Origin: Candidatus Bathyarchaeota archaeon
Lineage (GTDB): Archaea > Thermoproteota > Bathyarchaeia > 40CM-2-53-6
Direction of reading: 5' to 3'
Assembly: GCA_005882895.1 (NCBI GenBank)
Contig: VBBD01000008.1
Coordinates: 1 to 57,415, forward strand
DNA: 57,415 nt
In this document: positions 8,637-13,532 of the stretch, one piece after another
Position numbering within the stretch: position 1 is the first letter of the stretch
Layout of the letters: every line of letters begins with the position of its first letter
Position numbers and translations under genes: made by a program
Notes under the pieces: generated by a model
Databases searched by the model: none
Seen by the model: only the letters and a program-made list of their open reading frames with translations
What the model was told of the DNA's origin: nothing

Positions 8637-9008
8637 ATGCCCGTATCTCACGGAAAAACCTCGAAGAAAAAAGCGAAATCCGGACACGTGAGAAAACTCC
8701 GAACGACCTCGCCTCCCCGCAAGTCTTCTCCAAAGAGCGGCTCTCATCCCAAGAGAAAGACTGCAGTGAAGAAAGATGACGTCACATACGTGTACGAGTG
8801 TACTCGCCCCGGTTGCGGCTACAAGATCTGGCGGGACGACAAAGGTGAACCAGGACAGTTACGTAACGATCTAAAATGTCCAAAGTGCCATCACGTAGAA
8901 TTCCGGTGCCTGGGCAAGGGCGATCTACCCGAAAGTTTCCAAGTTCCAATTCCCACAAACCCTGTTGACCTTGACGCAATCAAAGCAAGTGAGATAGGTT
9001 CCAACTAG
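8637..9008 (+). CDS. Basic zinc-ribbon protein of unknown role
   Basis: A 123-residue protein. Residues 1-45 are extremely rich in Lys, Ser, Arg and Pro and look disordered and nucleic-acid binding. The remainder holds one zinc ribbon formed by CTRPGCGYK and CPKCHHVE, similar in style to RNA-polymerase Rpo12-like or ribosomal zinc ribbons, though I cannot equate it with a named family. It begins at ATG (8637) about 100 nt after the NAD-kinase-like gene and ends ~85 nt before the tRNA. An information-processing role is only a guess from its charge and zinc ribbon. Confidence 0.65.
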   Translation: MPVSHGKTSKKKAKSGHVRKLRTTSPPRKSSPKSGSHPKRKTAVKKDDVTYVYECTRPGCGYKIWRDDKGEPGQLRNDLKCPKCHHVEFRCLGKGDLPESFQVPIPTNPVDLDAIKASEIGSN

Positions 9009-9140
9009 GTCCTGAGGCGAGAGTCCTGTTTCGGTGAAACTATTCGCTTGATTCGACACTCTAATCAAACAGCAAGCTAGGCGATTTGTTCCTGGTGCGG
9101 GGGGTGGGATTCGAACCCACGAAGGCCTACGCCACAGGAT

Positions 9141-9157
9141 CTCTCCTGAAGCCGGAT
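9141..9157 (-). other. tRNA-Leu intron 3 (17 nt, canonical position 37/38)
   Basis: After TTAAG (nucleotides 33-37) a 17 nt insert with a tiny TCC/GGA hairpin precedes A38 and the 3' anticodon stem TCCTG. The central helix would be only CTT/GAG, a relaxed BHB. The boundary is ambiguous by one A, and the insert could equally be placed one base to the right. Confidence 0.6.
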
Positions 9158-9162
9158 CTTAA

Positions 9163-9188
9163 GTCAAGCACCACTCCTTTTCGGAGCG
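9163..9188 (-). other. tRNA-Leu intron 2 (26 nt, position 32/33)
   Basis: Exon CAGG pairs with CTTG near the 3' end of the intron (one G-U pair). The bulges are AC|C and AC|T, and an internal hairpin GCTCC-GAAAA-GGAGT can extend to CCGCTCC/GGAGTGG. Splicing joins C32 to T33, giving a proper anticodon loop. The intron is noncanonical in place and its BHB is not perfectly symmetrical. Confidence 0.65.
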
Positions 9189-9208
9189 GTCCTGCCCCTT
9201 TGACCTGA

Positions 9209-9241
9209 ATCCCGCCCTACAGGACAGGATCCTATAGTGGT
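9209..9241 (-). other. tRNA-Leu intron 1 (33 nt, D-loop)
   Basis: Exon CCCG (D-stem side) pairs with CGGG at the 3' end of the intron to give a four-base-pair central helix. The 5' bulge is AG|A and the 3' bulge AT|T. The inner helix CTATAGG/CCTGTAG closes the intron (one G-U pair). Splicing restores a D-arm CCCGAGTCAGGTCAAAGGG, which matches archaeal leucine tRNAs. The exact boundary may shift by one or two bases. Confidence 0.75.
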
Positions 9242-9282
9242 CTCGGGAACCCCCGCTTTCCGCTCCACGAGCAATATCCATT

Positions 9283-9291
9283 CTTAAAGCC
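9283..9291 (-). promoter_or_regulatory. TATA box of tRNA-Leu
   Basis: The minus strand shows CTTTAAGAA about 27 nt before the first nucleotide of the mature tRNA, the standard position for an archaeal TATA box driving a tRNA gene. Confidence 0.6.
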
Positions 9292-9431
9292 AATCTAACC
9301 AGAGACTCTGCCTAAGTCTCAAGTCTTCTCGAAGTCTCCGATCGACTCCCCCTGTTCTCGGATCTGAGATACAATCTCTACAAATCCAGCAAGTGTCAGC
9401 GTTCTTCTTGCAGAAGGGTCTGGCGGAAAAG

Positions 9432-9893
9432 ATGTCTCCCAGCAGGACCGTTCGGAGGTCCGTTACGCCAGATTCTGTCAAAGCCCTCATGATCATCGAG
9501 GCAATGGTGATCGCTTTCTTCTCGTTCTGGCTAGCTAACGAGTACGTCTATAACGTGTACTTCCGAATTTACGTGAACAGCGTCTTCGTAGAACACTTCA
9601 CAACCTACACAATCGCACTAGGGCTTGGAATTGGCCTAGCGGGGACAGCTGCCGCAGCGACCCTTTACAAGAACCTTAGAGACGCCAAATTGAAACTAGA
9701 ATTCGTCGCCCCGAAGATTAGAGGTTCTCTTGAGCAAATCCTAGCAAGTCTTCCCTCAATGGAACCGCAAGCGGTGATTCCACCAATTAGCAATGCTCCG
9801 GTCGTCCCAACTCAACCTGCCCAGGAGGCTACGACAGCCATTAGCCCCATTTCCCCTGCTTCTCCTCCGCCGCTTACGGAAGAGGAGAAATAA
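9432..9893 (+). CDS. Small membrane protein with proline-rich tail
   Basis: About 153 residues from the ATG at 9432; an in-frame GTG at 9393 would add 13 residues. Two membrane segments are visible (roughly residues 20-37 and 57-80 of the shorter form), separated by a short aromatic loop. A helical charged stretch and a Pro/Ala/Thr-rich C-terminal tail of ~45 residues follow, probably exposed and disordered. I do not recognise a family. It lies between the tRNA (divergent) and the dnaJ stop (convergent, 7 nt apart), so it is a single-gene unit. Confidence 0.6.
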   Translation: MSPSRTVRRSVTPDSVKALMIIEAMVIAFFSFWLANEYVYNVYFRIYVNSVFVEHFTTYTIALGLGIGLAGTAAAATLYKNLRDAKLKLEFVAPKIRGSLEQILASLPSMEPQAVIPPISNAPVVPTQPAQEATTAISPISPASPPPLTEEEK

Positions 9894-9899
9894 TTTCCT

Positions 9900-11015
9900 T
9901 TAGGGTTTCTCGCCTATTTCCTTGGCGAACTCGGTCAACAGTTCTCTCTGCCGCCGAGAGAGATCCTTCGGAATTTCAACATCAATTCTTACAAGCTCAT
10001 CTCCTCGTCCCCATCCTCCAACCCTCGGAAAGCCCTTGCCTTCTAGGCGAAACACCGTTCCGGGTCTTGTTCCGGGTGGAATCTTTAGCTGTGCCTTCCC
10101 ATCGATAGATGGCACTTGAAGCTCTCCGCCGAGAGCGGCTTTGGGAAAACTGACTTTCGTATCATAGAGAATATTGTCTCCGTCACGTTTGAACGCCTCG
10201 TGAGGCTTCAATCTTATCCGAACATAGAGATCTCCACTGCGCCCTCCCTGAGCAGCGTTCCCTTCTCCCCTGATTCGAAGGCTCTGGCCTTCGTCAGCTC
10301 CGGGGGGAACTTTCACTTGGAGTTTGGTCCTAGTTTTCGCAAGCCCGCTTCCGCTGCAGTTCTTACATGGCTTGTCAATGATGCTTCCTTCTCCTCTACA
10401 TTTGGGGCACGTGGTTATCTGGACGAGCTGGGCAAAGCCAGCTCGACGCACAGTTTGGACCTGGCCTCGGCCACGACAATTACTACAGGTCTTCCTAGAG
10501 CTTCCAGGCTGGGCCCCGGACCCGTTGCATTCCTTGCACTCTGCAAGCCGGGGAACCTCTATCTCCCTCGTCGCTCCACGCGCGACCTCGTCGAAACTAA
10601 TCTGTAAATCGTAGACCAGGTCCTCGCCTCGGGACGGGCCGCTTGAGCTTTCGAAATTCTGGAACCCTCCGAATCCGCCGAGGATTCGTTCCACGAAGCT
10701 GCTGAAACCTCCCCCGAATGAGCCGAAACCCATGTCTCGGAATATGGAATCGAAGTCCGCGCCTCGGAAAATATCCTCGGCGTTATATTTCTGGTAGATT
10801 CCCTCTCGCCCGAACTGGTCGTACTGTTTTCGCTTCTCGTCATCAGACAGTATCGCGTAGGCTTCTGAGATTTCCTTGAACTTCTCAGTGGCCTCAGGCG
10901 CTTTGTTCCTGTCTGGGTGATACTGTAAGGCGAGCTTTCGGTAAGAGCCCTTTATGTCATCCTTGGACGCATTTCGAGTAACCCCGAGCACGTCATAATA
11001 GTCTCGCTTCTCCAT
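9900..11015 (-). CDS. dnaJ: Chaperone DnaJ
   Basis: Type I Hsp40 that delivers substrates to DnaK and stimulates its ATPase. The J-domain is at residues 1-70 with the HPD tripeptide at 33-35. A Gly/Phe-rich linker follows ([11 protein letters not shown]). The zinc domain has four CxxCxGxG repeats beginning [24 protein letters not shown] and CKNCSGSG, and the beta-sandwich client-binding C-terminus comes last. The 371-residue length is normal. It is the last gene of the grpE-dnaK-dnaJ operon, starting at ATG 20 nt after the dnaK stop. Archaeal hsp70 systems are generally regarded as acquired from bacteria, and the gene order here matches that view. Confidence 0.97.
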
Positions 11016-11035
11016 TCTTTCCTATTCATCTCGCT

Positions 11036-12916
11036 CTACCGAGAGCCTTCGTCTTTTACCTCTCTGAACTCAGCGTCTACAACATTATCATCTTTAGACG
11101 GATTGGCTCCAGGGGCCGATGCCTGCTGGGCGGGCTCACCGGGCTTCTGGGCGGTTACCTTCTGGTAGATCTCAGCGCCGATCTTCTGGAGAATTCGTGA
11201 GAGGTCGTCGCTGGCCGATTTTATCTTTTCGGATTCCTTACCGGACAATGCCGCTCTCAAAGTGCCTGCAGCCTTGTCGATGGTCTCGACCTGTTCCTTG
11301 GTAATCTTGTCTTTCAACTCGTCTTTTGTCTTGTCAGCGGTGTAGAGCATGCTTTCCGCGGTGTTCCTGAGCTCCACCTCTTCCTTTCGTTTCTTATCCT
11401 GATCTGAAAACTGCTCGGCCTCGTGGACCATCTTCTCCTTCTGATCCTTCGAAAGCTTGGTCGAGGCAGCGATCGTGATCTTGTTCTCTTTAGACGTAGC
11501 TAGGTCTTTTGCTGATACATTCAGGATCCCGTTCGCGTCAATATCGAAGGTTACTTCGATTTGGGGAATGCCTCGAGGCGCCGGGGGGATACCTGTCAGA
11601 TTGAACATACCCAAGGATATGTTGTCCGTCGCCATGGCCCTCTCTCCCTGAAGCACGTGGATAGTAACGGTGGTCTGGGAGTCAGCTGCTGTCGAGAATA
11701 TCTGGCTGCGCTTTGTCGGGATGGTAGTGTTTCTCTCCATAATCTTTGTGGCGACGCCTCCCAGTGTTTCAACGCCTAGTGATAGCGGTGTGACGTCCAA
11801 GAGGAGTATGTCTTTGACCTCTCCGGCGAGGACTGCGCCTTGAATGGCAGCTCCGACGGCAACGCATTCCATAGGGTCGACGCCGCGCTCGGCTTGCTTG
11901 CCGACTATGTCCTCGACGAATTTTCGCACGAGTGGCATTCGGGTCTGGCCACCGATGAGTATAATCCTGTCCACATCTTTCGGGGTAAGCTTCGCGTCAT
12001 CGAGGGTTCTCTTGATCGGCGTCTCAACTCTCCGAACTATGGGATTAGCAAGCTCTTCTAGCTTAGCCCTAGTCACGGTTGTGTGGAGATGTTTAGGCTG
12101 GGAAGAATCTGCTGAAATGAAGGGTAGATCGACATCTGTTGTGAGTAAAGTTGAGAGTTCGATCTTCGCCTTTTCCGCGGCCTCCTTGAGCCGAGTCATG
12201 GCCATGCGATCGTTTCGTAGGCTTATGCCAGTCTGGCGCTGAAACTCGGTGAGCAAGTATTCGACGATCGCATTGTCAATGTCTGTCCCTCCTGTCTGTG
12301 TGTCTCCGCTCGTCGCCAAGACCTGGAAGACTCCGCCACCAAATTCCATCAGCGTGACGTCATGTGTTCCGCCTCCGAAGCTGAACACCATGATCTTCAT
12401 CTCCTTGTCGGCCTTGTCCAGCCCGTAGGCGAGACACGCGGCTGTGGGTTCGTTAATTATTCTGGCAACTTCGAAGCCAGCGATTTCTCCGGCGTCCTTG
12501 GTTGCTTGTCGTTGGTTGTCGTTGAAGTGGGCGGGGACGGTGATTACCGCTTTCTTTGTCGGGCGTCCAAGAAACGTCTCGGCGTCTTGTCTTATCTTTT
12601 GGAGTATGAACGCGGAGAGTTGCTGTGGAGTATAGTCTTTCCCGGCGACATGGACTTTGTAGTCGGTGCCCATCTTCCTCTTGATCTCGATAATGGTCCC
12701 GTCAGGATTCGTGGCTGCCTGTCTCTTAGCAGGCTCACCGACTATCAATTGGCCCTCTTTGGTGAAGGCGATGACCGAGGGGAACATCTTCCCGGCCGCG
12801 GTCTGTCCCTCGGCACTTGGGATAACGACCGGGCGTCCGGCTTCCATTATTGCGGCAGCCGAATTCGTCGTTCCGAGGTCTATTCCTATGATCTTCTCTG
12901 TCTCAGGCTTACTCAT
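11036..12916 (-). CDS. dnaK: Hsp70 chaperone DnaK with an altered catalytic site
   Basis: ATP-driven folding chaperone of 626 residues. The ATG at 12916 overlaps the grpE stop in an ATGA arrangement, so translation is probably coupled; an ATG nine bases upstream (12925) is the alternative. Nucleotide-binding motifs: IDLGTTNS (12-19), the IKR lysine (79), NEPTAA (155-160) and GGGT (181-184). The residue before the phosphate-2 loop, normally Asp (D199 of Hsc70, D194 of E. coli DnaK), is Ser179 in [11 protein letters not shown], and the usual Phe is His185. The substrate domain and lid are complete, ending in a Gln/Pro/Ala-rich tail and a DAEFREV-like end. Confidence 0.96.
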
Positions 12917-13532
12917 TGTCGCCAATCTCCTCTAGAGCAGACTTCTCGGATTTAGACTCACGCTCAACGGGATTCTCGGCTACTTTGACGATGCTGGGCC
13001 GTAGGACCTTTCCCTTCAGCGTGTATCCTTGCCGAATCTCTTCCACAATTGTGCCCTCCTCTTCGTCCGACACAACTCGAAGCGCGGCATCATGGAGATC
13101 GGGGTTGAACTTTGACCCTAGGCTCTGGATCTTCTCGACCCCCTCCTTCGAGAGGATGCTCTGTAACCGTTTATGGACCATTGCGACCCCCTCAGCTATT
13201 GTCGGGTTCTCGTTGCTTCCCCTCGCTTCTCTGAGTGCTAGTTCCAGCTCGTCGTTAACGACTATAATTTCCGACAGAAGTCGCTGGTTTCCGAACTGTC
13301 TGTTGTCAGACATCTCTTTCTCCACTCTCTTTCGGTAGTTCTCGAAATCGGCCTGGAGGTACTGCAGACGCCGTAGATAGTCCTCCGACTTCGCCCTCTC
13401 TTTCTCCACTGCCTCCACGGCCTCCTTCAACATGGTTTCCGCGTTTTCTCCTTCGAGAGGTTTCTTGGAGGGCGGTTGAGCCTCTACGGTTTCGGTTGCT
13501 AGATGTCTCTTTTTCTCGCTCACCACAACCAC
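12909..13532 (-). CDS. grpE: Nucleotide exchange factor GrpE
   Basis: Releases ADP from DnaK. The protein has about 207 residues from the GTG at 13532; in-frame GTGs at 13526 and 13523 are possible alternatives. A charged N-terminal region leads into a long coiled coil (about residues 30-105, including [12 protein letters not shown], the GrpE signature start). The beta-wing then holds [12 protein letters not shown] and the typical [17 protein letters not shown]. It is first in the operon, with its stop overlapping the dnaK start. A TATA-like GGTTTAATTTTT lies about 60 nt upstream (13591-13602). Confidence 0.95.

Follow-up and report, generated by a model that had tools for sequence, protein, structure and literature searches.

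The window, by which we mean the whole 57,415-nt stretch analysed here, is contig C3 (VBBD01000008.1) of a 1.97-Mb Candidatus Bathyarchaeota assembly (GCA_005882895.1; 92 contigs, 86.6% complete, 4.02% contaminated). On its minus strand, at 9256..9093, lies a 164-nt gene for tRNA-Leu(UAA) that is interrupted by three introns and whose 88-nt product consists of 85 nt plus an encoded CCA. With tRNA positions assigned by hand, the gene is built as follows:

9242..9256, minus strand: exon 1, positions 1-15
9209..9241, minus strand: intron 1, 33 nt, in the D loop at 15/16, with a CCCG/CGGG central helix and an internal hairpin
9191..9208, minus strand: exon 2, the 3' part of the D loop up to position 30
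9165..9190, minus strand: intron 2, 26 nt, at 30/31, with a central helix of 4 bp, an outer helix of 3 bp and an inner helix of 7 bp
9158..9164, minus strand: exon 3, positions 31-37, ACUUAAG, containing the anticodon UAA
9141..9157, minus strand: intron 3, 17 nt, at the canonical site 37/38, with a relaxed motif (3 of 4 central pairs)
9093..9140, minus strand: exon 4, positions 38-73, with the variable arm and T arm; CCA at 9095..9093

ARAGORN detected no tRNA in the window, and Rfam found nothing there at gathering scores, nor in 8800..9500 at E≤1. Once all three inserts are removed, ARAGORN reports a full-length tRNA-Leu(taa) of 88 nt. Partial excisions are also informative. Given the gene without introns 1 and 2 and allowed to search for introns, the program itself locates the 17-nt intron at 37/38; without introns 1 and 3 it returns a Leu(taa) in which a 26-nt intron sits in the anticodon loop; and if intron 1 alone is kept, it returns a Leu(taa) that begins inside intron 1. 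Removal of intron 1 alone (introns allowed) produces a spurious tRNA-Ser, and the remaining combinations give nothing. Group I and group II self-splicing introns were also considered, but the conserved catalytic core that they share was not found (no Rfam match in 8800..9500 at E≤1), and the inserts are only 17-33 nt long.

We compared the gene with its relatives, beginning with 38 genomes of the host's order. Eleven of the 38 IleRS loci (L033-L043) were searched by BLAST with the gene: it matched over its full length, at 94.5-97.6%, in L033, L034, L035 and L040 and over short stretches in L036 and L038, and had no match in L037, L039 and L041-L043. A scan for the UAA loop plus T arm matched in 31 of the 38 genomes; the pattern requires both elements within 48 bases, so that differently built genes escape it. 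Leu(UAA) genes were extracted from 24 distinct genomes (28 loci minus four that repeat the genes of G002, G007, G012 and G015). The uncounted 14 comprise seven genomes without a match, six whose only matches lie at other or unclear places, and G037, which was filtered out although the pattern listing has an insert of 22 nt at 37/38 for it. In all 24 genomes the spliced product is 85 nt, in 10 close variants. The inserts, in contrast, vary in sequence and in length (14-35 nt for intron 1, 17-30 nt for intron 2, 16-24 nt for intron 3). Every one of the 24 has introns 2 and 3, and 21 of the 24 have intron 1. The three genomes lacking intron 1 (G021, G022, G023) join the exons exactly, GAG directly to TCAGG, which fixes the boundary of intron 1.

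Outside the order, we chose nine genes by hand among the matches listed in a 256-genome search of the class, a sample rather than a census. All nine are without introns 1 and 2 and, as judged by eye, carry an insert further along the D loop. Intron 3 is missing in six (G040, G041, G044, G046, G049, G056), and the other three (G043, G064, G065) bear a different insert at 37/38. Taken together with the order genomes, this alignment confirms that the three-intron gene is real at the level of sequence, a conclusion for which the single sequence alone would have been insufficient. The initial annotation had proposed that a 164-nt gene becomes an 88-nt tRNA-Leu(UAA) on removal of 33, 26 and 17 nt, and had suggested that homologous genes be aligned; ARAGORN and the 24-genome comparison both bear this out. 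Its boundaries 9241/9209 and 9157/9141, and with them the placement in the D loop and at 37/38, also stand, whereas its 9188/9163 boundary at 32/33 is better replaced by 9190..9165 at 30/31, as motif and relatives indicate.

The case for 30/31 is as follows. In the window sequence the two cuts yield an identical product because of a two-base repeat, and ARAGORN, which seeks introns in the anticodon loop, places intron 2 at 32/33. The relatives, however, tell the two apart: the base following CAGG varies among A, G and T, whereas ACTTAAG is constant, and a cut at 32/33 would alter position 31 in many genomes. Moreover, the complete motif forms only at 30/31, where central, outer and inner pairs number 4/3/3, compared with 4/1/1 at 32/33. 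We therefore regard an intron 2 at 32/33 (9188..9163) as very unlikely.

To describe the motifs quantitatively, we counted central-helix pairs over the 28 loci, taking each distinct intron sequence once. Intron 1 (CCCG/CGGG) has four central pairs in 16 of its 18 distinct sequences and three in the other two, and shuffled introns reach four in 1.4% of cases. For intron 2 at 30/31 (GGCA/UGCU in the window) there are four pairs in 20 of 24 and three in 4 of 24 (shuffles, 1.6%); two of these pairs show G-U/G-C exchanges among relatives, and the stem of this intron changes widely in sequence with its pairing mostly kept. The internal hairpins of introns 1 and 2 have mean energies of -8.7 and -7.7 kcal/mol, versus -3.2 and -2.4 kcal/mol for shuffles. 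In the window both introns display the strict motif, a 4-bp central helix between two 3-nt bulges. Intron 3 (CUUA/GGAG) is looser, with four central pairs in 3 of 17 distinct sequences, three in 13 and two in one, and 17% of shuffled sequences have at least three. These counts match the earlier description of a four-base-pair helix with bulges in introns 1 and 2 and a three-pair version in intron 3.

We also considered a different placement of intron 3, in which the 17 nt are excised after position 43, leaving an anticodon stem CAGGA/UCCGG with an A28.G42 mismatch. This cut attains 4 of 4 central pairs, and its product is also accepted by ARAGORN. It was ranked first by our beam-search solver for bulge-helix-bulge introns, which uses a hand-made tRNA score and parses most genes of the genome, once class-II variable arms were enforced, and third in an earlier run. 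Nevertheless, the out-of-order relatives without intron 3 read TTAAGATCCTC, with U42, and not ATCCG, which sets intron 3 at 37/38 and disfavours the cut after 43. Stems of the form CAGG../..CCTG are also what this genome has in its Leu-CAG, Leu-GAG and Leu-UAG. Finally, the cut after 43 would pair a G of intron 3, and at that position several relatives (G001, G002 and others) have A, and G003 has T, as read by hand; the central helix at 37/38 makes no use of this variable base. Excision after position 43 is thus highly improbable.

The genome also encodes candidate splicing machinery. Two PF01974 genes are present, L031 (189 aa) and L032 (176 aa). The first, an EndA alpha subunit, has its best match in 3p1z_B (E 1.7e-43, aligned over 7-188), which we take to be the Aeropyrum pernix enzyme, and keeps Tyr, His and Lys on reading by hand, presumably the catalytic triad of EndA; 3ajv_B has Ala where this His aligns. 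A Lys of L031 aligns by hand count with residue 44 of 3p1z_B, in what we assume to be the crenarchaea-specific loop. The second, EndA beta, is an EndA relative best matched by 5x89_A and 1a79_A and, again read by hand, is without the His. RtcB was found at E 3.2e-170. Two different EndA genes, one with Tyr/His/Lys and one without, are the gene complement of a predicted α2β2 enzyme, consistent with the initial expectation of a heterotetrameric-type endonuclease. According to passages of PMC4090602 and PMC7714728, two-subunit endonucleases are tied to unusual introns and a broad substrate range.

These results support a model in which the gene yields a functional tRNA-Leu(UAA), three archaeal bulge-helix-bulge introns would be removed by a two-subunit (α2β2-type) endonuclease, and RtcB would rejoin the exons; judged from sequence, we place its probability at about 0.95. 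The model has a built-in order. Intron 2 would leave before intron 3, because the motif of intron 3 depends on the 27-31/39-43 stem, of which position 31 is found only on the far side of intron 2. Intron 1 would leave ahead of D stem formation, because its 3' end pairs with 10-13. That the locus might be a decayed tRNA gene carrying insertions is in keeping with the failure of ARAGORN and Rfam to detect the unspliced gene. The exons, however, are almost unchanged over 24 genomes while the inserts vary, and the host genome (86.6% complete) has a single UAA pattern match, so that a pseudogene is barely credible.

Several observations nevertheless weigh against the three-intron model. The motif of intron 3 is weak: the fourth pair is A.G in 9 of 17 distinct sequences, and in 11 of 17 the inner helix is a single pair. 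When the unspliced and the partly spliced transcript are folded to minimum energy, neither the canonical motifs nor the cloverleaf appear; removal of intron 2 only does let the anticodon stem fold, and intron 3 then forms an irregular hairpin in another register. The motif statistics are partly circular, in that exon anchors were used to excise the introns. The solver never ranked exactly these three introns first: runs gave introns 1 and 2 correctly and the third elsewhere, and one gave a spurious one-intron parse with a total of 69.8, near the 68.0 reached by five shuffles.

The solver gave no full parse of the window gene; L005, L007, L013, L028 and L080 were also not parsed, and L083 only in part. 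We controlled its scores with 34 genes and 170 plain shuffles of the stretch between position 9 and the T arm. Shuffles averaged 58.2 (maximum 73.2) and real genes 74.9 (minimum 58.2); 33 of the 34 genes scored above their own five shuffles, several of them (window gene, L007, L028, L090) by a small margin, the exception being L099 (68.6 vs 72.4).

Interruption by introns extends to most of the parsed tRNA genes of this genome. A T-arm pattern gave 62 matches versus 17 for a reversed control, and from these and the Rfam candidates we parsed 40 full-length tRNA genes. The Rfam tRNA model scored above cut-off at only 16 places, and two more (L022, L024) emerged when nine weak loci were scanned again, compared with the roughly 40 parsed by hand; general tRNA models thus overlook many genes in such genomes. 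Tallied by hand rather than by program, the 40 genes contain about 76 introns (about 1.9 per gene), and 37 of them have at least one: 3 genes have none, 10 have one, 15 have two and 12 have three. The intronless genes are Arg-UCG (L001), Arg-GCG (L003) and Leu-CAG (L006). Those with three are Leu-UAA of the window, Leu-CAA (L021), Asn (L012, minus strand), Lys-CUU (L018), Phe (L026), Ala-GGC (L075), Asp (L080), Ser-UGA (L083), Ser-CGA (L084), Trp (L095) and Pro-GGG (L090 and L099). Three introns in one gene, which the initial annotation singled out in Leu-UAA, are thus not exceptional in this genome.

Some entries in this tally are softer than others. L005, L007 and L013 were entered at a minimum of one intron each, and L021, L028, L080, L083 and the minus-strand L012 gene were parsed by hand. 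Two of the three introns of L080 have only 2 of 4 central pairs; the three introns of L018 come from solver runs, the third being without central pairs at merged ends; and in L090 and L099 a two-intron parse nearly equals the three-intron parse (68.0 vs 68.8 and 68.6). Four or more introns were proposed by the solver for L080, L084, L018 and L083, which we read as three with adjacent or alternative cuts, and four or more excisions for L024, which we read as two. Outside the 40 stand the initiator-like L023, for which the solver also proposes four or more excisions and which may have them, the Cys-like L093 (cut by a contig end), L076 and L079.

Gly-GCC (L015), Gly-UCC (L017), Ile (L027) and Ser-CGA (L084) have introns within the T arm, so that their T-arm consensus is itself interrupted at the DNA level. 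In L015 and L017 (G000:C91 and C34) these T-arm introns are 26 nt long and alike by eye in stem and position, and look as they would after gene duplication or intron transposition. Arg-CCG (L024/L025) and Pro-GGG (L090/L099) each occur in two very similar copies with somewhat different introns; these may be strain duplicates or a mixture, or true duplicates. In tRNA-Trp (L095) the anticodon-loop intron is unusually long, ~66 nt; a box C/D guide RNA is encoded in some tRNA-Trp introns of archaea. Lastly, L076 (G000:C10:19508-20118), ~3.7 kb from tRNA-Thr-CGU in L010, has a Thr-like 3' end and no recognisable 5' half, and may represent a split gene, a fragment, or a gene interrupted by further introns. 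Passages of PMC3293823 describe a 5' tRNA-Thr fragment near a tRNA-Thr gene in Caldiarchaeum.

The IleRS sequence places the host near Candidatus Bathyarchaeota metagenome-assembled genomes (MAGs) BA_25, BA_21, BA_22, BA_23, BA_3 and BA_24 and, equally, Crenarchaeota archaeon 13_1_40CM_3_52_17, all at 88-92% identity. The names of these closest MAGs carry 20cm to 40cm, and Bathyarchaeota of grassland soil at 30-40 cm depth are described in part of PMC5103831; we infer that the MAGs derive from such soil. The host is thus a soil-type Bathyarchaeia MAG and likely mesophilic, as had been supposed. Elsewhere in the window, at 9900..13532, adjacent reading frames resemble dnaJ, dnaK and grpE, on inspection of their translations by eye.

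It is instructive to compare this genome with known intron-rich systems. Multi-intron tRNA genes likewise occur in Thermoproteales (Pyrobaculum and others), which are hyperthermophiles; here about 76 introns in 40 genes (hand tally) occur in a soil-type Bathyarchaeia MAG. Passages of PMC8450103 give 71 introns in 46 tRNA genes for P. calidifontis, and for Thermoproteales an average of 0.84 introns per tRNA gene with up to three per gene. Among the titles and abstracts listed in searches of the literature we found no description of tRNA introns in Bathyarchaeota or Bathyarchaeia. This is a new clade for a known phenomenon, with a density similar to published cases and no clear record. We lean slightly towards a broader view, in which this genome, perhaps with its whole order, belongs to a soil lineage and has one of the heaviest archaeal tRNA-intron loads (about 1.9 per gene, three in 12 of 40; sites in the acceptor-D junction, D loop, anticodon arm, variable arm and T arm), and in which the order of splicing is built into the gene, at least for tRNA-Leu(UAA). 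The 24 orthologues, with their differences in intron presence and absence, make gain, loss and ordered splicing testable.

Where the initial annotation held that tRNAs with several introns are known mainly from Thermoproteales, it is outdated: according to PMC11291895 (2024), three genomes of the wetland-soil Asgard archaea Atabeyarchaeia and Freyarchaeia hold 228 tRNA introns; 92-95% of tRNA genes are interrupted, and more than half of all tRNA genes several times. These too are soil archaea, of a different lineage and at the same level of load as the 37 of 40 parsed genes here. A further soil archaeal clade thus joins the intron-dense group, so that heavy tRNA interruption is not tied to heat. 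Closest in isoacceptor is the tRNA-Leu(UAA) of Caldiarchaeum subterraneum, which a portion of PMC3293823 lists as a multi-intron gene; the likeness to the window gene consists in the same isoacceptor and that listing.
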